From Desulfobacteraceae bacterium (lineage in GTDB: Bacteria > Desulfobacterota > Desulfobacteria > Desulfobacterales > JAABSP01), in the NCBI GenBank assembly GCA_011390065.1, contig JAABTD010000021.1, positions 1-36,269 on the forward strand: a DNA stretch of 36,269 bases. The letters run 5' to 3'. Below the pieces are notes generated by a model. It did not search any database. It was given only the letters and a program-made list of their open reading frames with translations, and was not told where the DNA came from. Every line of letters begins with the position of its first letter. Positions within the stretch are counted from its first letter, which is position 1. This document shows, piece by piece, positions 1,549 to 36,269 of this stretch. The position numbers were made by a program, and so were the translations under genes.

Positions 1549-4200
1549 TCAGGGGTCGGCGCTCCAGGTATAATCCACCGGGAGGATCTCCTCATAAACA
1601 AGCCCTGAATCCCGCGATTCCATGATCACCTTCACCTGAGAGACGGTATCGGGAATGTCCAGGTAAAAATACCGCGAGACAGCGCCGGCGCCGGTCAGGA
1701 CCAGAGAGGGTTCGTGGTGCTGTCCCCCATTGGCGTCCACCGGCTTGACCCATATGTAAGCCCCTTCCGGATTGCCGATGATGTAGTCGACCGTGGCAAG
1801 CACCTTGACGCCGAGGCCGAGCCGGGCGGGGCTCGCCGGGGACATCCGGATGTTGAGGGCATAGGTTTCGGGGATCGGTTCGGACAGAAACTCCTGTACG
1901 GCGGCGTTGAAGTCGACGGGGCCGTCCGTATTGGGATACGCTCCTGCGTCGGCGATGCGCGCTTCCAGAAACGGGGTGTACCCTCTTTCCCGGATGTTTT
2001 TCACCGCCGGGTCGAATTCCGGATCCTCCGCGCCGCCGATGAGGGCGGTCTTGTGGGAGATGGCTTCCATTTCACCCAATCGGGAGGTTGAATCCGGAAA
2101 TGTGCGGTCCCAGGGGCTGACCAGGATCAGTTTGGCGATTTTTTCGGGGTAAAAGACGCCCAGCTGCGCGGCGACGGCGCTGCCGAGAGAAACCCCCACG
2201 ACATGGGCGCTGTCGATGCCCAGGTGATCCATCAGGGCGGCTGCGTCTGCGGTGGTCCGGTCGGCGCCGGGGTCCCAGGAAAAGGTGTCCAGGGGATGAC
2301 CGTCGGCCAGGGTCGATCGGCCGAAGCCCCGGATATCAAACCGGATCGTTTGGTATTGTTCGGAAAACGCTGCAAATTGCGAATCCCAGGAGGAGAGGCC
2401 TTTGCCCTCGCCCCAAGCATCGGTTTCCTGGCCGTGGATCAGCATCAGGGGATCGCCTTCTCCAGCGGTTTCGTAGTAGATCCGGGCGCCGTCGGACATC
2501 AGCACTGTACCGGAAATCACGGCGGGGCAGTCATACAGCACCGTTGCTCCCCTGGCTGCCAGTTCCGGGATGTAACCGTTGCAGGCGGCGTCATCCAGGG
2601 GATTGAGCGTCAGATCGACGACATCCCCGGCCCCGATGCCGTCGTTGTCCGCCAGCGGCCGGATGTCGGAAATGCGGTTGCCGGAGAGGTTCAGCTCCGA
2701 CAGATGGATCAGGTCCGAGAGCGGACCGAGATCGCTGATGCGATTGTCGGGGAGTTCCAGGACGACCAGATCAACGAGATGCTGAAGACCGTCGAGGTTG
2801 TCGATGTCGCTCCCGGAGGCCGAGAGGGTCGCAACGCCCGCCAGATCCCCGGGGAACAGGGGGCTTTCCGATATGCCGACGGCGCTTCGGACGGCCGCTT
2901 CAAGGTCCGGATCCGCAAAGGCGACCGCCGTTCCCTGTTGAGCCTTCCGGTAAGCGATGGTCCATCTGCCGAACCGGGTGTCGCCGGCCGCCTCGCTGTA
3001 GGCGATCCGGAAGAATCCGGCTTCGCCCCAGGTTGCGTCCCAGCTGTTTTTGAGGATAAAGGCCGCCTCGGCGTCATCCCAGCCGACGATGAGCGCTCCG
3101 TGGCCGCATTCGCCGAGACTGTCTTCGCAGTTCCCCCAGACGTGGGAGTAGACGCCCTGGTCATAGTAGTAGAAATCCGGAAAGACCTGGAAGATGGTTG
3201 CCAGGGGACCGTAAACGTAAAGTTCCTGTTTGAGGCGGTCAACGGTGACCGGCTGGCCGGCTGAAACAAAATGCCATCCGTCGGCTTTGATCGCATCGCT
3301 CTGCCAGTCCGCGCAGGCGTCGGCGCATTCCCCGTTCCCGGCCTGGTAGGGGAAGCAGGTTTCAGGGGCCGTGCCGGCGGCGGTGAGAAAATCGGCCGCC
3401 GCATCGATATAGCCGCCGTCGCAGCCGCCCGCCCCGCCGCAGGAGATCAGGATCTGTTCCGACAGATCGTCGGCGTTCACAGGAGAAAGACCGGCTTTGA
3501 GGGCCTGGGATTCCAGGGCCGCGATCGAGGCGAAGGCCCAGGAGGCGGCGCACAGGCGCTGATGCCGGACCGGCGTCACATAGTTGTTGCCGTTCCGGTT
3601 CCGCCAGTCGAAGGATGTCGGCAGTTCGGCGGGGTCCGGCAGCCCTGGTGATAAATCCGTTCGGGAAAGCGGGCCGGCGCCCAGCCCTTCCGTGATGGCC
3701 CCCAGAAGCAACAGGCGATCCGGAGCCGACAGGTCTGAGATGGGATTGTCTGCGGCTGACCACCGGGCCGACCGGTCTGCGATGGCGTCCTGGATCGCTT
3801 CCAGATCCGACAGCGGGGCCTTTCCGGTGACGGTGACGGCGATCTTTTTTGAATATTCGTCGCTGTCGTGGATGGTGAAGGCGGTGGACCCGGGGGAGAT
3901 TCCCTTCACTGTGACGGAGTGGCCGCCAAGGGTCACCCGGGCGATGGCCGCGTCGGCATCCTGGTCAAGGCGATAGGGGGAACGGCCGCCGTTGACCGTT
4001 ACCGTGCCGGTCTCGCCGACGCCCAGAGTGAGGCGGGTGGGGGAAATTCTCAGGTCCGGCCGATCTGATTCATCGCAGCCTGTTCCCCACAGCAGCAGAC
4101 CTGCCAGCAGCAGGGCCCAACCCGGAAGCCGAATCCCCGGAAGGCGAATCCGACGATCGGCCCGCTGTACGTTTTTATCCGCGCCGTCTGTTTTCATCAA
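1549..4200 (-). CDS. Lipoprotein: Ig-like, papain-like (Cys to Ser), leucine-rich repeat and alpha/beta-hydrolase-like domains
   Basis: An 883-residue exported protein. A hydrophobic segment at residues 28-38 ends in GTGC (Cys42), a probable lipobox. Asp follows the Cys, which in Enterobacteria favours inner-membrane retention. Residues 48-126 look like a bacterial Ig-like (Big_2) domain. Residues 190-420 match a papain-family (C1) fold: Gln214 for the oxyanion hole, His367 in GHGALIVGW and Asn385 in KNSW. The nucleophile position reads QRLCAASWAF, so Ser220 stands where Cys is expected. Residues 430-555 carry InlA-like leucine-rich repeats (LPDNRISDLGPL, LSGNRISDIRPL). Residues 560-775 match an alpha/beta hydrolase with nucleophile motif GVSLG (Ser671), but the usual His near the end appears to be Ala754 and the cap is very short. 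A beta-rich tail of about 110 residues follows. Domain calls are by motif. Catalysis in either domain is doubtful; a binding or scaffold role is inference. Confidence 0.85.
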   Translation of the reverse strand: MMKTDGADKNVQRADRRIRLPGIRLPGWALLLAGLLLWGTGCDESDRPDLRISPTRLTLGVGETGTVTVNGGRSPYRLDQDADAAIARVTLGGHSVTVKGISPGSTAFTIHDSDEYSKKIAVTVTGKAPLSDLEAIQDAIADRSARWSAADNPISDLSAPDRLLLLGAITEGLGAGPLSRTDLSPGLPDPAELPTSFDWRNRNGNNYVTPVRHQRLCAASWAFASIAALESQALKAGLSPVNADDLSEQILISCGGAGGCDGGYIDAAADFLTAAGTAPETCFPYQAGNGECADACADWQSDAIKADGWHFVSAGQPVTVDRLKQELYVYGPLATIFQVFPDFYYYDQGVYSHVWGNCEDSLGECGHGALIVGWDDAEAAFILKNSWDATWGEAGFFRIAYSEAAGDTRFGRWTIAYRKAQQGTAVAFADPDLEAAVRSAVGISESPLFPGDLAGVATLSASGSDIDNLDGLQHLVDLVVLELPDNRISDLGPLSDLIHLSELNLSGNRISDIRPLADNDGIGAGDVVDLTLNPLDDAACNGYIPELAARGATVLYDCPAVISGTVLMSDGARIYYETAGEGDPLMLIHGQETDAWGEGKGLSSWDSQFAAFSEQYQTIRFDIRGFGRSTLADGHPLDTFSWDPGADRTTADAAALMDHLGIDSAHVVGVSLGSAVAAQLGVFYPEKIAKLILVSPWDRTFPDSTSRLGEMEAISHKTALIGGAEDPEFDPAVKNIRERGYTPFLEARIADAGAYPNTDGPVDFNAAVQEFLSEPIPETYALNIRMSPASPARLGLGVKVLATVDYIIGNPEGAYIWVKPVDANGGQHHEPSLVLTGAGAVSRYFYLDIPDTVSQVKVIMESRDSGLVYEEILPVDYTWSADP

Positions 4201-19265: not shown

Positions 19266-19793
19266 ATGTTCAAGGAACCAAGAGAGGAATTGGCGTTTTT
19301 CTGGCATCAGATAGGCGATATCGCCCAGGGCCGGCCCCATCTGGGCGATGCAACAACGGTGACCGTTTACCGGCTGATGCAATACTCGCTCAGGGACGCC
19401 CTGATCCGCCGGTTGGGGCCGGAGGCGGCCGGCGAGGTTTTTTACGAGGCCGGCAAGCGGGCCGGAGAGGAGTTCTGCAAAAACGTTTTGGACCGGACCC
19501 TCGATTTCAACGCCTTTGCGGCCCAGCTCCAGGAAAGCCTCAGGGAGAATCGGGTCGGCATTTTCCGAATCGAAGAGGCCTCGCTCGATGACCGGATCTT
19601 CCAGATCACTGTGGCCGAGGATCTCGATTGTTCAGGCCTCCCCATGAGCAATGAAACGGTGTGCGATTACGATGAAGGATTCATCGCCGGCATTCTGGAA
19701 GCGTATGCCGGGGAACCCATCCGGGTCAAAGAGATCGACTGCTGGGCCAGCGGCGCGCGGGTCTGCCGGTTCAGGGCTGTACCGGCGATATAA
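19266..19793 (+). CDS. V4R (4-vinyl reductase-like) domain protein
   Basis: A 175-residue protein whose C-terminal two thirds match the V4R domain, a small-molecule-binding module found in hydrocarbon-sensing regulators such as XylR and DmpR and in bacteriochlorophyll-pathway proteins. Diagnostic is the end, KEIDCWASGARVCRFRA, with two Cys six residues apart from a Trp-Gly turn, which may bind a metal. GEVFYEAGKRAGEEF is also typical. No DNA-binding domain or signal peptide is visible. An AAGGAT box precedes the ATG. It is encoded 9 nt after the hybrid kinase, so it probably acts as a stand-alone ligand-sensing partner of that kinase. The ligand is unknown. Confidence 0.82.
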   Translation: MFKEPREELAFFWHQIGDIAQGRPHLGDATTVTVYRLMQYSLRDALIRRLGPEAAGEVFYEAGKRAGEEFCKNVLDRTLDFNAFAAQLQESLRENRVGIFRIEEASLDDRIFQITVAEDLDCSGLPMSNETVCDYDEGFIAGILEAYAGEPIRVKEIDCWASGARVCRFRAVPAI

Positions 19794-19800
19794 AAAAAGA

Positions 19801-19830
19801 TTGACAAGGCATGTTCGCCGCTGGTATTGA
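19801..19830 (+). promoter_or_regulatory. Promoter of the ilv-leu operon
   Basis: A perfect TTGACA at 19801-19806 is followed after 18 nt by TATTGA (19825-19830), preceded by TGG, close to an extended -10. A transcript would start near 19837, about 27 nt before the leader-peptide ATG. It begins 8 nt after the V4R stop codon. Confidence 0.6.
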
Positions 19831-19863
19831 TGTTAAAAATTATCTTTATTTCTGGGAATTAAA

Positions 19864-19947
19864 ATGATCGGTTTCATCGCCCTTATCAACATTCTTCTCC
19901 TTATTATTGTCGTCGGAATTATTCTCCTTCCGGCGGAAGGGGGTTGA
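19864..19947 (+). CDS. ilv operon leader peptide (27 aa, 16 branched-chain residues)
   Basis: A short frame from ATG at 19864 to TGA at 19945-19947, too short for ordinary gene calling. It begins MIGFIALINILLLIIVVG and continues IILL before ending PAEGG. Eight Ile, six Leu and two Val codons make up 16 of 27 residues, mostly in one block at 19891-19929. A weak GGGA lies 7 nt before the start. It lies between a promoter and a strong terminator just ahead of ilvD, the layout of branched-chain leader peptides such as IlvL. Ribosome pausing at scarce charged Ile, Leu or Val tRNA would control the downstream RNA fold. The peptide itself probably has no other role, although it is hydrophobic enough to be mistaken for a membrane miniprotein. 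Confidence 0.9.
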   Translation: MIGFIALINILLLIIVVGIILLPAEGG

Positions 19948-20032
19948 TAATGGCCTAAGCACACCGTTTATCCAGGCGCCGCAAAATCCGTTATCAGCCC
20001 CCGAAAAAAGGGCTGATAACGGATTTTTTTTT
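19880..20032 (+). promoter_or_regulatory. Ribosome-mediated transcription attenuator of the ilv-leu operon
   Basis: Four pairing segments can be read directly. Segment 1 (19880-19890, CCCTTATCAAC) lies in the leader coding region and pairs with segment 2 (10 of 11 positions, 19943-19953). Segment 2 (19939-19953, GGGGGTTGATAATGG) overlaps the leader stop codon and pairs over 15 positions (two G-U) with segment 3 (19988-20002). Segment 3 also forms the 5' arm of the terminator. A ribosome stalled on the Ile/Leu/Val block covers segment 1, freeing 2 to bind 3 and allowing read-through. A ribosome reaching the stop covers 2, so the terminator forms. The pairings are seen; the mechanism is inferred from known ilv/leu attenuators. 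Confidence 0.88.
19983..20032 (+). terminator. Attenuator terminator upstream of ilvD
   Basis: An 18-bp perfect stem (19983-20000 with 20010-20027) with a 9-nt loop ends in nine T (20024-20032). This is a very strong Rho-independent terminator placed 35 nt before the ilvD start, and it makes sense only if conditionally bypassed. Confidence 0.95.
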
Positions 20033-20067
20033 CCGCAGGGTAACAACCATTTCAGGAGCCAGCACAG

Positions 20068-21789
20068 ATGAAAAGCGACAACGCAAAAAAGGGGATCGAA
20101 CGGGCCCCCCACCGGGCCCTGTTCAAGGCCATGGGATACACGGACGGCGAGATCGGCCGGCCGCTCATCGGCATCGCCAATTCGGCCAACGCCATTATTC
20201 CGGGCCACGTCCACCTCGACACACTCGTCGAGTCGGTCAAAGCGGGCGTTTACATGGCGGGGGGAACGCCCATTGAATTCGGCGTCATCGGGGTCTGCGA
20301 CGGCATCGCCATGGGCCATACCGGCATGAAGTATTCTTTGGCCAGCCGGGAACTCATCGCCGATTCCATCGAGATCATGGCCACGGCCCACGCCTTCGAC
20401 GCCCTGGTGCTGGTTCCCAACTGCGACAAGATTGTGCCGGGCATGCTCATGGCCGCGGCCCGCCTCGACATTCCGGCCATCGTGGTCAGCGGCGGCCCCA
20501 TGCTGGCGGGCAATCACCCCACAAAGGGCGCATCCCAGAAGATCGACCTCATTACCGTCTTCGAATGCGTGGGTGCGGTCCGGTCCGGCAAGATGACGGA
20601 AGACGAGCTCTCGGCAGTGGAAGACGCCGCCTGCCCCACCTGCGGCTCCTGCGCGGGCATGTTCACGGCCAATTCCATGAACTGCCTCACCGAGGCCATC
20701 GGCATGGGGCTGCCCGGCAACGGGACCATTCCGGCGGTCATGGCGGCCCGGCAACGGCTGGCCAAAACAGCGGGGATAAAGATCATGGATCTGCTGGAAA
20801 GAAAATTGACGCCTCGGCAGATCATGAACCCGGCGGCCTTTGAAAACGCGCTCGCCGTGGACATGGCCTTGGGCTGTTCCACCAACACGGTTCTCCACCT
20901 GACGGCCATCGCCGATGAGGCCGGGGTCCCCATGAACCTGGACCGGATCAACGAGATCAGCCGGACCACCCCCCATCTGTGTTCCCTGAGCCCGGGCGGT
21001 CCTCACCATATCGAGGACCTGGACCGGGCCGGGGGCATCCAGGCCGTGATCCGGACCCTGGCGGACGCGGGCCGGATCCACCCGGAGTGCCGAACCGTCT
21101 CCGGCCGCACCGTGGGCGAGACCATCGAAAGCGTCGCGGTCCTGAACCGGGACGTCATCCGGCCCGTGGACAGCCCTTATCACGAGCAGGGCGGCCTGGC
21201 GGTGCTGTTCGGGGATCTGGCCCCGGAAGGGTGCGTGGTGAAGCAGTCGGCGGTGCGGGACGAGATGTTGCGCCACGAGGGGCCGGCCCGGGTGTTTGAT
21301 TCGGAGGAAGCCGCCTCGGAAGCCATCATGGCCGGGCAGATTCAGAAGGGGGATGTGGTGGTGATCCGGTACGAAGGTCCCATGGGGGGTCCCGGCATGC
21401 GGGAGATGCTGGCCCCCACATCGGCCATCGCCGGCATGGGGCTGGACGGCCACGTGGCCCTGATCACCGACGGCCGGTTTTCCGGCGGCACCCGGGGCGC
21501 GGCCATCGGTCACATCTCGCCCGAGGCGGCCCAGGGCGGCCCCATCGCCGCCGTTCGGGAGGGAGATCTCATCGCCATCGACATTCCCGGTAAGTCGATT
21601 TCTCTGAAGGTCGATGAGACCACGCTCAGGGAACGGATGATCGGGTGGACCCGACCCGAACCCGCCATCGCTAAGGGGTATATGGCCCGGTACGCCCGGA
21701 TGGTGTCGTCCGCCAGTCAGGGCGCCGTTTGCCGGCCTTGCCGGGAGGCGTCAGCCTCCGGATTGATATCCGGACAAGAGGAGACATGA
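20068..21789 (+). CDS. ilvD: Dihydroxy-acid dehydratase
   Basis: A 573-residue IlvD, which converts dihydroxyisovalerate and dihydroxymethylvalerate to the 2-keto acids of valine and isoleucine. The Fe-S ligand motifs are present: [27 protein letters not shown] and [19 protein letters not shown]. The C-terminal [20 protein letters not shown] is typical. The start is supported by AGGAG at 20054-20058. The family usually ends near YARLVSSASKGAV; here some 20 further residues ([15 protein letters not shown]) follow, perhaps only to bring the stop close to ilvB, which begins 1 nt later. First structural gene after the attenuator. Confidence 0.96.
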
Positions 21790-21790
21790 C

Positions 21791-23482
21791 ATGAAATTAT
21801 CCGGCGCGCAAATTTTGATGAAAGCCCTCAAGGACGAGGGTGTGGACACCATTTTCGGCTATCCCGGCGGCGCGGTCATCGACATCTACGACGAGCTGGT
21901 CAAGACCGACATCCGCCATGTGCTGGTCCGCCACGAACAGGGGGCCGTCCATGCCGCGGACGGTTATGCCCGGGCCGCCGGCAAAGTGGGCGTCTGCCTG
22001 GTCACCTCGGGACCCGGCGCCACCAACACGGTCACCGGCATCGCCTCGGCCTATATGGACTCCATCCCCATGGTGGTCATCACCGGCCAGGTGCCCCGGG
22101 GGCTCATCGGCAACGACGCGTTTCAGGAAGTCGATATCGTCGGCATCACCCGGCCCTGCACCAAGCACAACTACCTGGTGGAAAGCACCGAGAGCCTGGC
22201 CCGGATCATCAAAGAGGCGTTTTACATCGCCCGGTCCGGCCGGCCGGGGCCCGTTCTGGTGGACATCCCCAAAGACGTGGTCAACATGCGGATTCATTAC
22301 AAGGAGCCCGCCAAGATCAACATGCGGTCTTACAATCCCACCATCAATCCCAACAAGCGCCAACTTCAGAAAGTGGTCAGCCTTGTTGAAAAAGCCCGAC
22401 GGCCCGTGATTTTTGCCGGCGGCGGCATCATCCTCTCCAAGGCGTCTGAAGAACTGACCCGGTTCGCCCGCCATGCGCAGATTCCCGTGACCACCTCTCT
22501 CATGGGCCTGGGAGCGTTTCCCGGTTCCGACCCGCTCTGGCTGGGGATGATCGGCATGCACGGCACCTATCGGGCCAACATGTCCACCAGTGAATGCGAT
22601 CTGCTCATCGCCATCGGGGTCCGGTTCGACGACCGGGTCACCGGCAAGACCGATGCCTTTGCGGCCCAGGCCGAGATCGTTCATATTGACATCGACCCCA
22701 CCTCCATCCGGAAAAACATCCCGGTGACCGTCCCGGTGGTGGGGGACTGCCGGGCCGCCCTGACGACCCTCAACGAGATGCTGGGCGAAGCCGATTTGAA
22801 CGGCATCGCCGACAAACGGCAAAAATGGTTCGCCCGCATCGAGGAATGGAAGGCCCTTAGCCGGCTGGCCTACCAACAGGGCGAGGTCATCAAGCCTCAA
22901 TACGTGGTGGAAAAACTCTACGAGTTGACAAAAGGCGACGCCATCATCACCACCGAGGTGGGCCAGAACCAGATGTGGGCGGCCCAGTTCTATCACTTCA
23001 ACCAGCCCAACCATTTCATCACGTCAGGGGGCCTGGGGGTCATGGGATTCGGCCTGCCGGCGGCCATCGGCGCCCAGATCGCCCAGCCGGACCGGCTGGT
23101 GGTGGACATCGCCGGCGACGGCTCCATTCAGATGAACATTCAGGAGATGGCCACGGCGGTCCAGTGCTGTCTGCCCGTCAAGGTCGTCATCCTGAACAAC
23201 GGCTACCTCGGCATGGTCCGCCAGTGGCAGGAACTGTTCTATGACAAACGGTATGCCTGCACCTGTATGGATCATGCCCCCGATTTCGTCAAGCTGGCCG
23301 AGGCCTACGGGGCCGTGGGGCTCCGGGCCACGACGCCCGACGAGGTGGAAGCCGTGCTGAAGAGGGGGCTGTCCAACTACAAGGACCGGCCGGTAATCAT
23401 GGATTTTGTGGTGGACAAGGAAGAAAGCGTCTATCCCATGGTTCCCGCCGGAGCGCCCATCACCGAAATGCTGCTGGTTTAA
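21791..23482 (+). CDS. ilvB: Acetolactate synthase large (catalytic) subunit
   Basis: A 563-residue ThDP enzyme that condenses two pyruvates, or pyruvate with 2-ketobutyrate. The catalytic Glu lies in [19 protein letters not shown], the substrate and FAD region in [16 protein letters not shown], and the ThDP/Mg motif in [15 protein letters not shown]...ILNN. The length is normal for IlvB/IlvI. The start is 1 nt after the ilvD stop, with GAGGAGA inside the end of ilvD serving as ribosome site, so translation is probably coupled. Its regulatory partner IlvN is encoded directly downstream. Confidence 0.96.
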
Positions 23483-23497
23483 GGAAGGGAGGCGATC

Positions 23498-23986
23498 ATG
23501 ACGGAAGAAAAACACGTGCTTTCCATCCTGGTGGACAACAAGCCGGGGGTCCTGTCCCGGATCGCGGGACTTTTTTCCGGACGGGGCTACAACATCGAAA
23601 GCCTGTGCGTCGCGGAAACCATGGAGGAGGGCGTCTCCCGGATCACCCTGGTCACCCAGGCCAATCTGCCCCTGGTGGAGCAGATCAAAAAGCAGCTCAA
23701 CAAGCTGATCAACGTCATCAAGGTCTTCGACATGACGGAGGCCCAATACGTCCAGCGGGAACTGGCCCTGATCAAGGTGACGGCCAAGCCGGAAAACCGG
23801 GCCGAAATCCTGCGCATCGTCGACATTTTCCGGTGCAAGGTCGTGGATGTGGGAATGGACCACTACACCATCGAAGTGACCGGAGACGAGGGCAAGCTGA
23901 CGGCTATCCGGGGCCTGTTGAAACCCATGGGCATCAAGGAGATCGCCCGGACGGGGATGATCGCGCTGTTCAGGGATGCGAAATGA
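23498..23986 (+). CDS. ilvN: Acetolactate synthase small (regulatory) subunit
   Basis: A 162-residue IlvN/IlvH-type protein. The N-terminal ACT domain (HVLSILVDNKPGVLSRIAGL, residues 6-80) binds valine for feedback inhibition. The C-terminal domain (about 85-160) ends with GIKEIARTGMIALFRD, the usual ending of the long form. The start is preceded by AAGGAAGGGAGG. It lies 15 nt after ilvB. Confidence 0.95.
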   Translation: MTEEKHVLSILVDNKPGVLSRIAGLFSGRGYNIESLCVAETMEEGVSRITLVTQANLPLVEQIKKQLNKLINVIKVFDMTEAQYVQRELALIKVTAKPENRAEILRIVDIFRCKVVDVGMDHYTIEVTGDEGKLTAIRGLLKPMGIKEIARTGMIALFRDAK

Positions 23987-24084: not shown

Positions 24085-25134
24085 ATGGCGGAAATCGATT
24101 TTGGCGGCACGACGGAAGAGGTGATTACCTCGGATGAATTTACACTGGACCAGGCCCGGGAGGCGCTGAAAGATGAAACCGTGGCGATTCTGGGCTATGG
24201 GGTCCAGGGGCCGGGGCAGGCCTTGAACCTGCGGGACAACGGCATCGGCATTATCGTGGGACAGCGGGAAGGCGGGGCGTCCTGGGACCGGGCCATGACG
24301 GACGGGTTCGTTCCCGGCAAGACCCTTTTCTCTGTGGAAGAGGCAGCGAAAAAGGCCACCATTATTCAGTACCTGCTCTCCGACGCCGGCCAGGTGGCCA
24401 TGTGGCCCAAGGTGAAGGAATGTCTCAACGAGGGCGACGCCCTCTATTTTTCCCATGGATTCGGCATCGTCTATCGGGACCAGACCGACATCGCGCCGCC
24501 GGAAAACGTGGATGTGATCCTGGTGGCCCCCAAAGGATCCGGGCGGACCGTCCGGACCAACTTCCTGGACGGCTCCGGCATCAATTCCAGCTTCGCCATT
24601 CATCAGGACTACACGGGCCGCGCCAGGGAGCGGGCCCTGGCCCTGGGCATCGCCATCGGGTCCGGGTATTTGTTCCCCACCACCTTTGAAAAAGAGGTCT
24701 TCAGCGACCTCACCGGCGAACGGGGCGTGCTCATGGGATGCCTGGCCGGGGTGATGGACGCCCAGTACAACGTTCTCCGGAAGAACGGGCACAGTCCCAG
24801 CGAGGCGTTCAACGAAACCGTGGAGGAACTGACCCAGAGCCTTATCCGGCTGGTGGCCCAAAACGGCATGGACTGGATGTTCGGGAACTGCTCCACCACG
24901 GCCCAGCGGGGCGCCCTGGACTGGTCCCCCAAGTTCCGGGACGCCGTGGCCCCGGTGTTCGAGGACCTGTACGAGAGCGTCAAAACCGGTAAAGAGACCG
25001 AACGGGTGCTGGATGTCAACAGCGCGCCTGATTATCGGGAAAAGCTTCAGAAAGAACTGGACGAAATCAAAAACTCCGAGATGTGGAAGGCCGGGACCGC
25101 CGTCAGGGCGCTCCGACCCGAAAACAGACGGTAG
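24085..25134 (+). CDS. ilvC: Ketol-acid reductoisomerase, fungal-like form
   Basis: A 349-residue KARI that rearranges and reduces acetolactate and acetohydroxybutyrate with NADPH, using Mg2+. The Rossmann motif is ILGYGVQGPGQALNLRDNG, and the metal-binding helical domain contains GERGVLMGCLAGVMDAQY and GHSPSEAFNETVEE. The N-terminal run EFTLDQAREALKDE, the phrase VAPKGSGRTVRTNF and the ending EMWKAGTAVRALRPEN match, as I remember it, mitochondrial fungal Ilv5 better than the common bacterial class I enzyme of about 330 residues or the long E. coli class II enzyme. The gene lies 98 nt after ilvN. Confidence 0.93.
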   Translation: MAEIDFGGTTEEVITSDEFTLDQAREALKDETVAILGYGVQGPGQALNLRDNGIGIIVGQREGGASWDRAMTDGFVPGKTLFSVEEAAKKATIIQYLLSDAGQVAMWPKVKECLNEGDALYFSHGFGIVYRDQTDIAPPENVDVILVAPKGSGRTVRTNFLDGSGINSSFAIHQDYTGRARERALALGIAIGSGYLFPTTFEKEVFSDLTGERGVLMGCLAGVMDAQYNVLRKNGHSPSEAFNETVEELTQSLIRLVAQNGMDWMFGNCSTTAQRGALDWSPKFRDAVAPVFEDLYESVKTGKETERVLDVNSAPDYREKLQKELDEIKNSEMWKAGTAVRALRPENRR

Positions 25135-25157: not shown

Positions 25158-26765
25158 ATGGAACCGGTTTTGCTGTATGACACCACCTTGAGAGACGGCA
25201 CCCAGGGCGAAAACATCAATTTTTCAGCCGAGGAGAAGATCAAGATCGCCCGTCGGCTGGATGATTTCGGCATCCATTACATTGAAGGCGGGTGGCCCGG
25301 TTCCAATCCCAGGGATCAACGATTTTTCGAACTGGCGGCCGACGAAGACTTCAAAACCGCGCGATTGACCGCCTTCGGGGCGACCCGCCGGCCCGGCATC
25401 GCCCCGGAGGAGGATGCGAACCTGGCGGCCCTCCTGGAAAGCAAGACCCCCGCCGTGGCGGTGTTCGGAAAAACCTGGGATCTGCACGTCCGGATCATGG
25501 AAAACACCCTGGAAGAAAACCTGGCCATGATCGGCGACACCACGGCTTTTCTGAAACGTCACGGCCGGGAGATCATTTACGATGCCGAGCATTTCTTCGA
25601 CGGTTACCGAGACAATCCGGACTACGCCCTGGACACCTTAAAGGCGGCCGTGGAAAACGGGGCCGATGTGGTCGTGCTCTGCGACACCAATGGCGGAACG
25701 CTGCCGTTCGACATTGAACGCATCGTCTGCGACGTCCGCCGCTTTCTGTCGGACGGGTTCGGTGAAGATCGCGTCCGGTTGGGCATCCACTGCCACAACG
25801 ACAGCGGCGTGGCCGTGGCCAACACCGTCATGGCGGTTCAGTCCGGCGTGGTCATGGTCCAGGGCACCATCAACGGTTACGGCGAACGGTGCGGCAACGC
25901 CGATCTGACGTCGGTAATCCCCATTCTCTGTGAAAAGATGGACCGCCCGTGCGTGCCGGAAGAGAATCTGGCCCAGCTCCAGCAGCTTTCCCGGTATGTG
26001 AGCGAGACGGCCAACATGATCCCCCTCAACAGCCGCCCCTTTGTGGGCAAGAGCGCCTTTGCCCATAAAGGGGGCATCCATGTGAGCGCGGTGATGAAGG
26101 AGCCCCGCGCCTATGAGCACATGGATCCGCAGCGGGTGGGAAATGACCGTCGGGTGCTGGTGTCGGACATGTCCGGCAAGAGCAACGTGGAATACAAAGC
26201 CCGGGAACTCGGGGTCCGGTTGGGCGGCAACGGGTTCGACAGCCGGCGGATCGTCTCGAAGATCAAGTGCATGGAACAGGATGGCTATCAGTTCGACGTG
26301 GCCGATGGCTCGTTTCAGATCCTCATGGAAAAGTTCACGGATCAGTTTATGCCGGCCTTTGAACTGGAATCCTTCCGGGTGACCGTTGAAAAGGACAAGG
26401 ACAAACCCTGCTCGGCCCACGCGACCATCAAAATCTCCGTGGGAGACCAGCACGAAATCACCGCCGCCGAAGGCCACGGCCCGGTGAGCGCCCTGGACAA
26501 CGCCATGCGAAAGGCCCTCGGTCAGTTCTTCCCGGACATCGACGCCATGCACCTGGTGGATTTCAAGGTGCGCGTCATCGACGGCCGGGAAGGGGCCGCG
26601 GCCCGGGTCCGGGTCCTCATCGAGTCCCGTGACGAACAGGAGATCTGGTCCACCATCGGGGTGTCCGAAGACATTATCGAAGCCAGTTGGCAGGCCCTGG
26701 CCGACAGTTATCAGTGCAAACTGGCTGTTTCCGCACTGGCGGAGGAGCGGCGGAAGGCGGGGTGA
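25158..26765 (+). CDS. cimA: (R)-citramalate synthase
   Basis: A 535-residue member of the LeuA/CimA/homocitrate synthase family. The N-terminal DTTLRDGTQGENINFS, with GTQGEN where LeuA has GEQSPG, and IEGGWPGSNPRD mark citramalate synthase. Metal ligands lie in GIHCHNDSG; the C-terminal third is the LeuA-type allosteric dimer domain (ATIKISVGDQHEITAAEG). It joins pyruvate and acetyl-CoA to (R)-citramalate, leading to 2-ketobutyrate for isoleucine without threonine deaminase. Its placement between ilvC and leuA fits. It follows ilvC by 23 nt and is preceded by AAAGGAGAGG. An 8-bp tandem repeat begins 4 nt after its stop. Confidence 0.93.
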   Translation: MEPVLLYDTTLRDGTQGENINFSAEEKIKIARRLDDFGIHYIEGGWPGSNPRDQRFFELAADEDFKTARLTAFGATRRPGIAPEEDANLAALLESKTPAVAVFGKTWDLHVRIMENTLEENLAMIGDTTAFLKRHGREIIYDAEHFFDGYRDNPDYALDTLKAAVENGADVVVLCDTNGGTLPFDIERIVCDVRRFLSDGFGEDRVRLGIHCHNDSGVAVANTVMAVQSGVVMVQGTINGYGERCGNADLTSVIPILCEKMDRPCVPEENLAQLQQLSRYVSETANMIPLNSRPFVGKSAFAHKGGIHVSAVMKEPRAYEHMDPQRVGNDRRVLVSDMSGKSNVEYKARELGVRLGGNGFDSRRIVSKIKCMEQDGYQFDVADGSFQILMEKFTDQFMPAFELESFRVTVEKDKDKPCSAHATIKISVGDQHEITAAEGHGPVSALDNAMRKALGQFFPDIDAMHLVDFKVRVIDGREGAAARVRVLIESRDEQEIWSTIGVSEDIIEASWQALADSYQCKLAVSALAEERRKAG

Positions 26766-26769
26766 CAAA

Positions 26770-26828
26770 GGGACAGAGGGACAGAGGGACAGAGGGACAG
26801 AGGGACAGAGGGACAGAGGGACAGAGGG
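26770..26828. repeat. Tandem array of seven 8-bp units GGGACAGA
   Basis: Seven perfect copies of GGGACAGA run from 26770 to 26825, followed by a partial GGG, starting 4 nt after the cimA stop. A degenerate unit (TGACAAA) precedes the array. It lies in the untranslated cimA-leuA gap, so a change in copy number would alter spacing but not a protein. Such arrays are prone to replication slippage. Confidence 0.9.
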
Positions 26829-27011: not shown

Positions 27012-28550
27012 ATGAGCGATCGTGTTTATGTTTTCGATACCACGTTGAGAGACGGCGAGCAGTCCCCGGGCGCCAGCATGAACACCGGAGAAAAACTGCG
27101 TCTGGCGACCCAGCTGGAAAAGCTGGGCGTGGACACCATCGAGGCCGGCTTCCCGGCGGCGTCCGAGGGCGATTTCGAGGCGGTCTCCCGGATCGCGGAA
27201 AAGATCAAGCGGGCCGAAATCGCCGGATTGGCCCGGGCTTCCAAATCGGACATCGACAAGGCGTGGGGGGCGGTGCAGCATGCGGCGAAACCCAAGATTC
27301 ATACCTTCATCGCCACGTCGGACATCCATCTGGAATACAAACTGAAGATGACCCGGGACCAGGTCCTGCAGGCCGCCATCGACGCGGTCCGGTACGCCAG
27401 GTCGTTCACGCCCGTGGTGGAGTTTTCCGCCGAGGACGGCTCCCGCAGCGATCCGGATTTTCTGTGCAAGATTTTTGAGGCGGCCATCGAATCGGGCGCC
27501 ACGGTGGTCAACCTGCCCGACACGGTGGGGTACGCCATCCCCGCCGAGTTCTCGGAACTGGTCCGGTACGTCATCGCCCACACGCCCAACATCGGCAAGG
27601 CGATCCTGAGCGTCCACTGCCACAACGATCTGGGACTGGCCACGGCCAACACCCTTGCGGCCCTCCATGCCGGGGCCCGGCAGGCGGAAGTGACCATCAA
27701 CGGCATCGGCGAGCGGGCCGGCAACACCTCCCTGGAAGAAGTCGTCATGACGCTGCACACGCGGCCTAATTACCTGCCCATGGAAACCGGCATCCACACG
27801 GAGCATATCTACCCCACCAGCCGACTGGTCTCCATGATCACCGGCATGATGGTTCAGCCCAACAAGGCCATCGTGGGCGCCAACGCTTTTGCCCATGAAG
27901 CGGGGATTCACCAGGACGGGGTTCTGAAAAACCCCATGACCTACGAAATCATGAAGCCGGAGACCGTGGGGCTGAACCGCAACATCATGGTCCTGGGCAA
28001 GCATTCGGGGCGTCACGCCCTGAAGGATCGGTTAAAAGAGATGGGATACGACCTGTCTGCTGAAGAATTGCAGCTGGTCTTCGGCAAGTTCAAGGAACTG
28101 GCCGACAAGAAAAAGCATGTAGTGGACGAAGACCTGGAAGTGATCGTCACGGAGGGCATTCTCCGGACCTCGGAAGTCTTCAAGCTGGAATACATCCACG
28201 TCACCTGCGGCAGCACGGTGATGCCCATGGCCAGCGTCAAGCTCGCCATCAACGGCCGCTCCGTCAAGGACGCCGCCTACGGCAACGGCCCCATCGACGC
28301 GGCCTTCAACGCCATTGCCAAGCTGACGGGGGCCCAGTCCGAGCTGCTCCGGTTCTCCGTTTCCGCCCTGACCGGCGGCACCGACGCCCAGGGCGAAGTG
28401 ACCGTCCGCCTGAAGGAAAACGGCCTGATGGCGTTAGGAAAGGGCGCCGACCCCGACATCATCACCGCCAGCGCCAAGGCTTATATTAACGGGCTGAATC
28501 GGTTGGAGTATTTGAAGACGCATCCGGTGGAGAAGGCCCAGCACGTGTAA
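27012..28550 (+). CDS. leuA: 2-isopropylmalate synthase
   Basis: A 512-residue LeuA of bacterial length, the first committed step of leucine synthesis: 2-ketoisovalerate plus acetyl-CoA. It has the signature DTTLRDGEQSPGASM near the N-terminus, IEAGFPAASEGDFEAV, the metal motif VHCHNDLGLATANT and NAFAHEAGIHQDGVLKN. The C-terminal part (about 390-500) is the leucine-binding regulatory domain. A TAAGGAG box precedes the ATG. The gene is separated from cimA by 246 nt that contain the tandem repeat and a hairpin. It is the last gene before a terminator; leuB, leuC and leuD are not in the window. Confidence 0.95.
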   Translation: MSDRVYVFDTTLRDGEQSPGASMNTGEKLRLATQLEKLGVDTIEAGFPAASEGDFEAVSRIAEKIKRAEIAGLARASKSDIDKAWGAVQHAAKPKIHTFIATSDIHLEYKLKMTRDQVLQAAIDAVRYARSFTPVVEFSAEDGSRSDPDFLCKIFEAAIESGATVVNLPDTVGYAIPAEFSELVRYVIAHTPNIGKAILSVHCHNDLGLATANTLAALHAGARQAEVTINGIGERAGNTSLEEVVMTLHTRPNYLPMETGIHTEHIYPTSRLVSMITGMMVQPNKAIVGANAFAHEAGIHQDGVLKNPMTYEIMKPETVGLNRNIMVLGKHSGRHALKDRLKEMGYDLSAEELQLVFGKFKELADKKKHVVDEDLEVIVTEGILRTSEVFKLEYIHVTCGSTVMPMASVKLAINGRSVKDAAYGNGPIDAAFNAIAKLTGAQSELLRFSVSALTGGTDAQGEVTVRLKENGLMALGKGADPDIITASAKAYINGLNRLEYLKTHPVEKAQHV

Positions 28551-30616: not shown

Positions 30617-31804
30617 ATGGACGAACAGGCCCCGCATGGGCATGGAGGATTTGAGCCATTGCCGGAAGACAAAAACAGAATCGCCGTTTTCGTGTCGTTT
30701 TCCGGGCACGGCGGCGTGGAACGGATGATGCTCAATCTGTGCGAGGGCTTGGTGTTCCTCGGTCATCCGGTGGATCTGCTGCTGATCAAAGACCGGAGCC
30801 GGTATCTGGCGACGGCCCATCCCGATATCCGCATCATCAGACTGCGGGCCTCCCATGCGCTCAGCGCATTGCCGGAACTGGTCCGCTACCTGAAGCGCGA
30901 GCGCCCGGCCGCCCTGCTGGCCGCCAAGGATCGGGCCAATCGAATCGCCATTGTCGGAAAACGTCTGGCGGGCGTGCCGACCCGACTGGCGGTTCGCATG
31001 GGCACCCATGTGTCGGGGTCCCTGATCGGGAAACCCGACGCCTTGAAGATCCTGTGGCGGTTGATGATACGGCTTTTTTACAACCGGGCCGACGAGATCG
31101 TCGGCAACTCAAAGGGCATCATCGAAGACTTGAGCGGCATCACCGGTTTGCCAATGGATCGGATGACGGTGATCCCGAACCCGGTGGTCACGGACCGGAT
31201 GGCGGTGCTCGCGGCAGAAGCGGTCGATCATCCATGGTTTGTGGAGGATGAGCCGCCGGTGATCCTCGGCTCCGGTCGATTGACCCGGCAGAAAGATTTC
31301 GCAACGCTGGTCCGGGCCTTTGCCCAGGTTCGACAAAACCGCCCTTGTCGGTTGGTGATCCTGGGGGAAGGGCGCGACCGCGCCATGCTGGAAGGGCTGG
31401 CCGGCGAATTGGGGGTTGAAAAAGACGTGGATCTGCCCGGATTCGTTGACAACCCCTACGCCTATGTGGCAAAAGCCTCGCTTTTCGCCCTGTCTTCGAT
31501 TTGGGAAGGCGCGCCCAACGTGCTGGTGGAGGCGTTGGCGCTGGGCATCCCGTCCGTTGCTGCGGATTGCCCCAGCGGGCCGGCGGAGATACTGGCGGGC
31601 GGCCGATACGGCAGGCTGGTCCCGCCGGGGGATGCCGGGGCGTTGGCCCGGGCCATTGTCGAAACGTTGGACCATCCGCCGGAGACGGGAATGCTGAAGG
31701 ACGCCGCAGCGGACTATACCCAGGCAGTCAGCAGCCGGCGGTATCGCGACCTGCTGCTTCCCGCAGAAGCTGAACACTCAAAAAGCGCAGAGGCCCGGAG
31801 CTGA
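30617..31804 (+). CDS. Glycosyltransferase family 4 (GT-B fold)
   Basis: A 395-residue cytoplasmic glycosyltransferase. The frame is open from 30335, but the recognisable GT4 fold begins with RIAVFVSFSGHGGVERMMLN about 22 residues after the ATG at 30617, so this start is preferred; ATGs at 30533 and 30584 remain possible. The acceptor half is followed by the linker GNSKGIIEDLS and VIPNPV, and the donor half has GSGRLTRQKDFATLVRAFA and the EX7E catalytic motif in SIWEGAPNVLVEALALG. It transfers an activated sugar, probably to an LPS core or other surface glycan given the GT9 gene two positions downstream. The stop lies 3 nt before the sulfotransferase start. Confidence 0.9.
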   Translation: MDEQAPHGHGGFEPLPEDKNRIAVFVSFSGHGGVERMMLNLCEGLVFLGHPVDLLLIKDRSRYLATAHPDIRIIRLRASHALSALPELVRYLKRERPAALLAAKDRANRIAIVGKRLAGVPTRLAVRMGTHVSGSLIGKPDALKILWRLMIRLFYNRADEIVGNSKGIIEDLSGITGLPMDRMTVIPNPVVTDRMAVLAAEAVDHPWFVEDEPPVILGSGRLTRQKDFATLVRAFAQVRQNRPCRLVILGEGRDRAMLEGLAGELGVEKDVDLPGFVDNPYAYVAKASLFALSSIWEGAPNVLVEALALGIPSVAADCPSGPAEILAGGRYGRLVPPGDAGALARAIVETLDHPPETGMLKDAAADYTQAVSSRRYRDLLLPAEAEHSKSAEARS

Positions 31805-33537: not shown

Positions 33538-33581
33538 CTCGTGAACATCAGAACCCGATCCGAGCAGGGAAGATTTCGCGA

Positions 33582-33689
33582 ATGTTGGCGGGAAAAAGCA
33601 AAGCCCCGGCGCCGCATAACCGCCCCATCGATGAGTTTGTACGGCGGTATCCGGAGCAGTGGTTCTGAGTGCATCGGCGGTGGAAGCGG
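33582..33689 (+). pseudogene. 3' relic of a lipid-A lauroyl acyltransferase (LpxL/HtrB family) gene
   Basis: One plus-strand frame reads RPIDEFVRRYPEQWF, then TGA (33666-33668), then VHRRWKR. The combination YPEQWFWVHRRWK is the conserved C-terminal end of LpxL/HtrB-type Kdo-lipid A acyltransferases; the TGA stands where TGG for Trp is expected. Only about 35 codons before the homology end are left, because the heptosyltransferase gene stops at 33537. So a gene for lipid-A acylation was probably deleted and its tail kept. The match is from memory of the family and the segment is short. The rest of 33541-33733 shows nothing else. Confidence 0.6.
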
Positions 33690-33763
33690 GCGTCGTCGCG
33701 TGCGTGGCCGAGGGATGGAAAGGAAGCGCGGTGATGGGAGATGACGGGGATCGTCTGCGACCA

Positions 33764-34651
33764 ATGAGAGAAAATCACGATCAAAACTTGAAGAACGCAT
33801 TTCTGGATTTTCCGAAAGAGGCGTTGGAATGGCTGTTTCCCGAAGCGGTGGACGCGTTCGGTAAAATCCGCCGCGTCGAATTTCCGCGCCAGGAGCCGAA
33901 AAAACGGCGCCTGTCTGACCGGGGGCTTTCGCTGGACATGCCGATTTTGTTTGAATTCGAGCGAAAACAATTGCTGTTGTGGCTGGTGGAATTTCAGGAG
34001 GACAAGGCAAAATTTTCCATTTACAAGGTGTTGATGTACGCAACCGAAATGGCCGAGGCTCATCCCGGGGCGCTGGTGGTTCCTGCGGTGTTGTTCACGG
34101 ACCGGACGCGGTGGCGAAAGGACGTGAAGCGGGAAATCGATTTCCGCCTGGGCCGTAGGGTGTTCTTGCATTTTGAATATCTGTTCGTTAAGCTGTTTGA
34201 TTATGACGCACGGGATTATTTTCACTCGAAAAACCCGCTGGTCAAAATTTTGTTGCCGAAGATGTGGTATCCGGCTGAAATGCGCGTCGAAGTGATTATG
34301 AGGGCGTATCAGGGACTGTTTGAATTGACCTCCGCAGCGTTGTTCGAGAAATATGTCGATTTTATCGACGTCTATGCCGATGTTCGGCAAGAGGAGCGGG
34401 ACGATATTTTGAGAGCCTTGGAGGAGAGAAAGGAGACGGTTATGCTTGCTGAATATATTAAGGATAAAGGACGCATTGAAGTTGCGAGGGAAAATGTGTT
34501 GGAAGTACTCAATACTAAGTTTAGTTCTGTTCCGATTGAAGTTTCTGAAAGCGTCAATGGCACGACCGATTTGGTCGAATTGAAGAAAATGTTGAAACAG
34601 GGGGTTCTGGCGAATTCTTTGTCGGATTTTATAAAGATTGTAAAAAATTAG
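33764..34651 (+). CDS. Rpn-family PD-(D/E)XK nuclease / transposase-like protein (full copy A)
   Basis: A 295-residue protein of the Rpn/transposase_31-like group. The core reads LDMPILFEFERKQLLLWLVEFQEDK, giving the Asp and the ExQ-type residues of a PD-(D/E)XK nuclease. It is followed by YKVLMYATEMAEAHPGALVV and VLFTDRTRW, typical of the group. The last 60 residues (VLEVLNTKFSSVPIEVSESV) resemble the DUF4351-like tail found in these proteins. The start at 33764 is chosen because the same MRENHDQNLKNAF start is shared by two further copies; ATG at 33734 with AAGGAAG upstream is an alternative. Coding sequence after about 34430 is markedly richer in A and T. Such proteins promote DNA recombination or are parts of mobile elements. 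Whether this copy is active is unknown. Confidence 0.8.
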   Translation: MRENHDQNLKNAFLDFPKEALEWLFPEAVDAFGKIRRVEFPRQEPKKRRLSDRGLSLDMPILFEFERKQLLLWLVEFQEDKAKFSIYKVLMYATEMAEAHPGALVVPAVLFTDRTRWRKDVKREIDFRLGRRVFLHFEYLFVKLFDYDARDYFHSKNPLVKILLPKMWYPAEMRVEVIMRAYQGLFELTSAALFEKYVDFIDVYADVRQEERDDILRALEERKETVMLAEYIKDKGRIEVARENVLEVLNTKFSSVPIEVSESVNGTTDLVELKKMLKQGVLANSLSDFIKIVKN

Positions 34652-34969: not shown

Positions 34970-35398
34970 ATGAAATTTGAATATCCTCTCAATATCGCTG
35001 AGCAAGATGATGGGAGTTACCTGGTCGCTTTTCCAGATATTCCCGAAGCCTTAACCGATGGAGAGACAGTAAATGAGGCGATGTCCGAAGCTTCAGACTG
35101 TCTTATTGCCGCGTTGGGAGGATGTATCAAGGAAAATCGATATATCCCCAAACCGTCGCTGGCAGAGCCAGGCCAAAAAACAATTGTGCTGCCGCCGTTG
35201 GTTTCGGCTAAGGTGGCATTGTACCAGGCAATGCGTGAAGCAGATGTAACATGTGTCGAAATAGGTAAGAGATTAGGTGTAAGTGAAAAAAATTCGTTGT
35301 TTGCTTGATATAGATCATAAATCTCATATTGGGCAAGTCGATGAAGCGTTATTCATTTGGGAAAACGCTTAGTAGTTAATGCTCAAAACGCTGCTTGA
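34970..35398 (+). pseudogene. hicB: HicB-type antitoxin gene disrupted by two compensating frameshifts
   Basis: The first 107 or so residues match HicB of the E. coli type: FEYPLNIAEQDDGSYLVAFP, DIPEALTDGETVNEAM, and the start of a C-terminal Xre-like helix-turn-helix (VEIGKRLGVSEK). Frame 1 then ends at TGA 35306-35308. Homology continues in another frame after a run of seven A (35285-35291) as IRCLLDIDHKSHIGQVDEAL, and returns to the first frame from 35357 as LGKRLVVNAQNAA, ending at TGA 35396-35398. The total of 429 nt is the normal length, so one inserted base and one lost base balance. As written, a protein of 112 residues with a broken HTH could be made. GGGGG lies 4 nt before the ATG. 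Confidence 0.75.
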
Positions 35399-35437
35399 AA
35401 TGATTGCCATCGGCCACACGCTGTACGACAAGTTAAT

Positions 35438-35662
35438 TTGGCTGAAAAACATATGATCGAAGCTCATCTCGACGCGTTGTTGGTTCCCGAGGCGTTGCTT
35501 GCAGACCGAAAACAAGTCCTCAACACTCAATTTGGTTCGGTTCCCCTTGAGATTGCGGAAAAAATCAATGGCGCGAATGATTTGGAGCAACTGAAAAACA
35601 TGTTGAAAGCGGGATGGCTGGCGGACTCTTTGTCGGGTTTTGCAAAGGTTGTGCGGAATTAA
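35438..35662 (+). pseudogene. Remnant C of the Rpn-family gene: middle fragment fused to the C-terminal tail
   Basis: The 74-residue frame begins with a fragment equivalent to MAEAHPGALVVPAVLFTDR of copy A (here MIEAHLDALLVPEALLADRK) and runs straight into the tail equivalent of VLNTKFSSVPIEVSESVNG (here VLNTQFGSVPLEIAEKING). About 120 residues between the two are missing. The tail is only moderately similar to that of copy A, so it came from a different family member. It could still be translated as a small protein, but a deletion product is more likely. Region 35399-35437 shows nothing else. Confidence 0.75.
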
Positions 35663-35749
35663 ATCATAAATGCGCTGGATAATATTGAAGTCGTTCTCGT
35701 TTTTATGTCGGAGATGGACTGAAAAGAACAACGGGGGCGTCCGCGGCCA

Positions 35750-36269
35750 ATGAGAGAAAATCACGATCAAAACTTAAAGAACGCATTTCTGGATTTTCCG
35801 AAAGAGGCGTTGGAATTGCTGTTCCCTGAAGCCCTGGACGCGTTCGGCAAAATCCGCCGCGTCGAATTTCCGCGCCAGGAGCCGAAAAAACGGCGTCTGT
35901 TGGACCGGGGGTTTTTGCTGGACATGCCGATTTTGTTTGAATTCGAGAGAAGGCAACTGCTGTTGTGGCTGGTGGAATTTCAGGAGGACAAAAGCAAATT
36001 TTCGATTTACAAGGTTTTGCATTACGCCACCGACATGGCCGAGGCCCATCCCCATGCGCTGGTGGTTCCCGTGGTGTTGTTTACGGATCGGAAGCGGTGG
36101 CGAAAGGACGTGAAGCGGGAAATCGATTTCCGCCTGGGCCGCAGGGTGTTCTTGCATTTTGAATATCTGTTCGTTAAGCTGTTTGATTATGACGCACGGG
36201 ATTATTTTCACTCGAAAAACCCGCTGGTCAAAATTTTGTTGCCGAAGATGTGGTATCCGGCTGAAATGC
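35750..36269 (+). CDS. Rpn-family PD-(D/E)XK nuclease / transposase-like protein (copy D, cut by the right edge)
   Basis: Begins MRENHDQNLKNAFLDF, exactly as copy A, and continues with the nuclease core LLDMPILFEFERRQLLLWLV followed by EFQEDK, then YATDMAEAHPHALVV and VLFTDRKRW. An in-frame stop upstream with no other start in between fixes the ATG at 35750. Up to about 36100 it differs from copy A at many positions, whereas the last 150 bases in the window are nearly identical to 34137-34285. The C-terminal part lies outside, so completeness cannot be judged. Confidence 0.8.
   Translation, partial: MRENHDQNLKNAFLDFPKEALELLFPEALDAFGKIRRVEFPRQEPKKRRLLDRGFLLDMPILFEFERRQLLLWLVEFQEDKSKFSIYKVLHYATDMAEAHPHALVVPVVLFTDRKRWRKDVKREIDFRLGRRVFLHFEYLFVKLFDYDARDYFHSKNPLVKILLPKMWYPAEM

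Follow-up and report, generated by a model that had tools for sequence, protein, structure and literature searches.

The branched-chain operon and its surroundings

The 36,269-nucleotide stretch of DNA analyzed here (the window) comes from a 5.0 Mb genome whose named relatives are Desulfobacterales, in the phylum Thermodesulfobacteriota. On its forward strand lie genes for dihydroxy-acid dehydratase (ilvD, 20068–21789; TIGR00110), the large and small subunits of acetolactate synthase (ilvB, 21791–23482, TIGR00118; ilvN/ilvH, 23498–23986, TIGR00119), ketol-acid reductoisomerase (ilvC, 24085–25134; TIGR00465), citramalate synthase (cimA, 25158–26765; TIGR00977) and 2-isopropylmalate synthase (leuA, 27012–28550; TIGR00973). 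An earlier note on this DNA treated these as a combined ilvD-B-N-C-cimA-leuA unit. Every gene is confirmed by protein family, but for leuA, 246 bp beyond cimA, a place on the transcript of ilvD-ilvB-ilvN-ilvC-cimA is only presumed. Eight tandem copies of the 8-bp GACAGAGG occupy 26764–26828 in the gap that separates the two genes; the repeat could affect spacing, or could be a variable repeat.

Two further features of the window lie apart from the operon. On the minus strand at 1549–4200, a single frame encodes an unusual domain chain that combines leucine-rich repeats with a papain-family cysteine protease domain and an alpha/beta hydrolase domain. The stretches 33548–34651 and 35369–36211 appear to be near-copies, with reverse-strand frames that share long similar runs (KIIPCVIIKQLNEQIFKMQEH...); they are likely a duplicated gene, with the second copy extending toward the contig end.

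Probable promoter and predicted leader peptide

Upstream of ilvD, the sequence TTGACA (19801–19806) begins 7 bp past the end of a V4R-domain gene on the same strand (19266–19793) and is followed by TG-G-TATTGA (19822–19830), which is extended -10-like; together these form a probable forward-strand promoter at 19801–19830. Of the TTGACA promoter that had been claimed, the hexamer is real, but a consensus promoter scan of the window found no consensus -10, and the case for a promoter comes from relatives, 39 of 41 of which carry an exact TTGACA, at positions that cluster some 61 nt upstream of the leader ATG and usually with TGnTA after it. Across about 40 leaders, TTGACA and TGnTA occur with little TATAAT likeness, a sequence pattern that points to a shared promoter of the extended -10 type for this operon.

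The predicted leader peptide, MIGFIALINILLLIIVVGIILLPAEGG, is encoded on the forward strand at 19864–19947, from an ATG at 19864 to a TGA at 19945–19947, with control codons at about 19882–19929. Its 27 residues include 8 Ile, 6 Leu and 2 Val, exactly as first read, and its ribosome-binding site, judged by eye, is weak. Because an open frame with at least 16 Ile, Leu or Val residues also arises in 4 of 400 shuffles of the region (1%), this richness is not convincing without relatives. The earlier note proposed to look for the frame in relatives, and it is kept in 41 of them: across these leaders, Ile, Leu and Val make up 58% of the leader frame (frame 0) and 25% and 6% of the other two frames, frame 0 is the richest in all 41, and each non-leader frame is interrupted by stops in 28 of the 41 rows. 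Codon choice in the window leader is skewed, with CTT used for 4 of 6 Leu and ATT for 5 of 8 Ile; in the window's genes, CTT accounts for 8% of Leu and ATT for 21% of Ile codons. According to the theory of selective tRNA charging, codon choice bears on starvation sensitivity (PMC1183508), and on that theory the CTT/ATT preference may raise the sensitivity of the leader. Alternatively, it may merely keep the leader region unstructured.

Alternative hairpins before ilvD

The leader holds four segments with competing partners, all on the forward strand. Segment 1 (19879–19892), identified by folding, helix scan and covariation, forms the base of a protector hairpin whose other side is segment 2 (19939–19953). 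An inner hairpin, CGTCGGAA / TTCCGGCG, lies within this 1:2 structure at 19911–19937. Segment 2, supported by helix scan, covariation and frame analysis, may pair instead with segment 3 (19988–20002), which overlaps the 5′ arm (19983–20000) of a terminator whose 3′ arm is segment 4 (20010–20027).

The pairings claimed in the earlier note bear up under calculation. Ten of 11 positions pair between 19880–19890 (CCCTTATCAAC) and 19943–19953 (GTTGATAATGG), with one C-U mismatch. The antiterminator joins 19939–19953 to 19988–20002 at 15 of 15 positions, including G-U pairs, at −29.0 kcal/mol. The terminator pairs 19983–20000 with 20010–20027 over 18 bp (−28.1 kcal/mol), and its nine-T tract at 20024–20032, matched by a T run in all 41 aligned leaders, makes it an intrinsic terminator upstream of the first gene. 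Relative to dinucleotide shuffles, the whole-leader fold has a z of −4.65, with 0 of 200 shuffles as good; z is −9.1 for the terminator and −4.1 for the 2:3 helix, and even a weak terminator together with a weak 2:3 helix arises in 0 of 400 shuffles of the region.

A further claim, that the leader stop codon sits inside segment 2, holds for the window and most relatives, but in about a quarter the stop lies at the 3′ edge of segment 2 or just past it. An exact stop position is therefore not demanded, only that the ribosome cover segment 2.

Conservation and covariation

For comparison, 50 ilvD upstream regions were taken from 58 genomes of the same order. The full device, comprising leader, segments 1–4 and T tract, is present in 41 of the 50. 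Among the other nine genomes, one shows just a terminator-like remnant at ilvD and has its device at ilvB instead, three lack the device at ilvD, and for five the gene retrieved was a distant ilvD paralogue. A covariance model built from the 41 leaders locates the device elsewhere in eight of these nine: before ilvB in five (G041, G019, G030, G053 and G032), before cimA in G043, before both cimA and ilvB in G021, and at a contig end in G008, where the downstream gene is not readable. Only in G010, a genome 79% complete, did the model find no device.

The covariation on which the earlier note had staked its reading is present in all three helices of the 41-sequence alignment. When every pair of columns is scored with no structure given in advance, 3:4 comes out on top, followed by 1:2 and then 2:3. 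Measured against shuffle controls that leave kinship between the sequences in place, the 3:4 helix is 95.9% paired with 24 double-change cells (0 of 500 shuffles), 2:3 is 93.8% paired with double changes at five pairs (1 of 500), and 1:2 is 81.4% paired with double changes at ten pairs (1 of 500); the covariation score of each helix also exceeds every slid control. The inner hairpin covaries as well, with 28 double-change cells in relatives and 0 of 500 shuffles. As 2:3 and 3:4 are mutually exclusive and both covary, the alignment supports the switch directly. In two leaders, L041 and L031, 2:3 extends as far as the loop of the terminator through pairs peculiar to each lineage (CGAGC/GCTCG and TGCA/TGCA, respectively), which is more than a plain terminator requires. 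Segment 2, moreover, is read in three frames by different leaders (30, 10 and 1) with its bases unchanged, and is thus conserved as RNA rather than as peptide.

Ribosome position and the proposed switch

Ribosome-mediated attenuation is a textbook mechanism, and in sequence the device has every feature of it. The effect of a ribosome was modeled by treating the RNA as covered up to 12 nt from the start of the A site and folding the remainder to the end of segment 3. In the predicted folds of the 41 leaders, a stall at Ile, Leu or Val codons gives a mean P(2:3) of 0.88–0.89, and with the A site at the stop codon the mean is 0.01 and no leader reaches 0.3. The stalled ribosome therefore frees 2:3 and the ribosome at the stop covers segment 2 in silico in 41 of 41 cases, which supports the interpretation of the earlier note: a ribosome on the control codons leads to 2:3, and cover of segment 2 from the stop abolishes it. 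When no ribosome is present, the equilibrium fold ending before segment 4 favors 2:3 in many members, the window among them (P about 1.0). Termination without translation accordingly depends on kinetics, with 1:2 forming first during transcription; the calculation describes equilibrium.

The sequence of events may be envisaged as follows. RNA polymerase would start near 19837 and produce the leader, with a ribosome following and translating the 27-codon peptide. Were charged Ile, Leu or Val tRNA scarce, the ribosome would stall in the control codons and cover segment 1; segment 2 would then pair with 3, and polymerase would continue into ilvD. A ribosome reaching the leader stop codon would instead cover segment 2, with loss of 2:3, while in the absence of a ribosome 1:2 would form first and termination would be expected. 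Taking sequence, conservation and modeled folding together, we regard the device with high confidence as a ribosome-mediated transcription attenuator of the classical kind, set before the branched-chain operon.

Other accounts of the same DNA deserve consideration. The hairpin might be a mere intrinsic terminator of the V4R-domain gene, and the Ile/Leu/Val-rich frame an accident of T-rich DNA; the closeness of that gene on the same strand, and the 1% of shuffles that yield a comparable frame, speak for this. However, a conserved TTGACA intervenes between the gene and the leader, the leader frame, 2:3 and 1:2 are conserved in 41 genomes, and the device precedes branched-chain genes even after relocation. 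A plain terminator would call for neither 2:3 nor 1:2; that both helices covary already refutes the idea, and we accord it almost no credence.

A biosynthetic operon preceded by a structured leader that has both a terminator and an antiterminator, and an additional conserved inner hairpin, would also befit a ligand-binding riboswitch or T-box that a short frame overlaps by accident. That the Ile/Leu/Val-rich frame is frame 0 in all 41 leaders, that control codons change with the regulated gene, and that Rfam offers no family at threshold and only unrelated weak matches, render such an RNA exceedingly improbable. Perhaps, alternatively, the product of the frame is a small hydrophobic peptide that has a function of its own in the membrane, to which regulation is secondary. 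The peptide sequence is plausible as a membrane segment, but the C-terminus varies with reading frame while the RNA bases stay fixed, the amino-acid bias tracks the downstream gene, and the conserved INLISL residues fall on the segment 1 pairing; we give this a very small chance.

Spread and occurrence before other genes

The device occurs across almost all of the order. In the window's own genome, the covariance model finds a single site (E 8.6e-21), besides the reverse-strand image of its terminator. Two weak matches at C215 (E 0.1 and 0.29) were rejected, as they look like an ordinary GC-rich hairpin with no leader. By the same model, the device occurs in 257 of 291 genomes of a class sample, and in 188 of 200 of good quality; class-sample genomes among the matches listed all belong to the window's own order. 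A phylum sample yielded 48 of 395 genomes, 33 of them outside the order, a patchier occurrence that extends to other classes. Carriers include the cultured relatives Desulfoluna butyratoxydans and D. spongiiphila. Of 20 such extra-order matches that were fetched, 18 precede cimA (13), leuA (2), ilvB (2) or ilvD (1). When about 85,000 species genomes were searched for the core DNA pattern, 97 stretches matched, all of them titled as Desulfobacterales, Desulfobacteraceae or its genera, Desulfococcaceae, Desulfoluna, Deltaproteobacteria, Syntrophobacterales, Syntrophaceae, Thermodesulfobacteriota or Proteobacteria bins, and a plasmid search for horizontal copies found none.

Where the device is not at ilvD, it stands before ilvB, cimA or leuA. 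Leaders before leuA are relatively richer in Leu (22 of 20,000 permutations, from only four leuA cases and with kinship included), and those before cimA in Ile (28 of 20,000, again with kinship included), a bias in keeping with leaders that sense what the regulated branch makes. A few matches have other neighbors. One (L092, G009:C1165:430-604) lies before an M55-like peptidase-like frame and another (L117, G598:C70:4825-5004) before an acyl-CoA dehydrogenase-like frame, both named by eye; these genes, though not obviously of branched-chain synthesis, are possible new regulon members. In another class, L115 (G434:C86, minus strand, about 30715–30858) has an aromatic leader, MFTYQSVQDYYFFYYTWRGTGLPMD, then a terminator, with aroC about 0.5 kb beyond, and is probably an aromatic amino acid attenuator of the same phylum.

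It has been proposed that amino-acid attenuators are possibly of Gammaproteobacteria origin with few transfers (PMC3766115), a simple picture that the spread across Desulfobacterota does not match. We lean, with some reserve, toward the opposing view of one ancient family native to Desulfobacterota that serves as standard branched-chain control, follows the lead gene (ilvD, ilvB, cimA or leuA) and retunes its codons to match, toward Ile at cimA and Leu at leuA.

Relation to known systems

The family, found in Desulfobacterales and beyond, is absent from Rfam and apparently undescribed. An Rfam scan at gathering and permissive thresholds gave no relevant family; the window leader does not reach the gathering threshold of the Leu leader (RF00512), and by the Rfam model it lacks the specifier loop and T-box sequence of a T-box. 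Our literature search found no such attenuator described for Desulfobacterota, although older key surveys might mention one; a 2004 paper on delta-proteobacteria regulation does not. The device supplies a testable rule for branched-chain control in a large group of anaerobes of environmental importance, and offers a natural series in which one RNA device has been redirected from gene to gene by changes in its codons. Its spread speaks for an old age of ribosome-mediated attenuation and for its being common beyond Gammaproteobacteria, and a covariance model of such leaders is a possible Rfam family.

Several known leaders invite comparison. The Veillonella ilvD motif WRC-18-2 (PMC8632094) is likewise a structured RNA before ilvD, but is reported as a weak riboswitch candidate, from Veillonella only and with little covariation. 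Actinobacterial ilvB leaders, namely the Corynebacterium ilvBNC uORF / ilvB-II motif (PMC10272879, PMC11109978, PMC11857589) and those in PMC1262725, likewise place an Ile/Leu/Val-rich upstream frame, an antiterminator and a terminator ahead of a branched-chain operon, but differ in phylum, sequence and hairpin plan. The ilvGMEDA, ilvBN and leu attenuators of E. coli and Salmonella (cited in PMC1183508) have in common with the window device a leader rich in the regulated amino acids, exclusive 1:2, 2:3 and 3:4 pairings with an intrinsic terminator, and a stop codon positioned for ribosome cover of segment 2. Unlike these, the window device belongs to another phylum, does not match the Rfam Leu leader or any other Rfam family, has its own conserved core (TTGATAATGG / CCGTTATCAG / CTGRTAACGG) and an extra inner hairpin, and would control ilvD-B-N-C-cimA-leuA.
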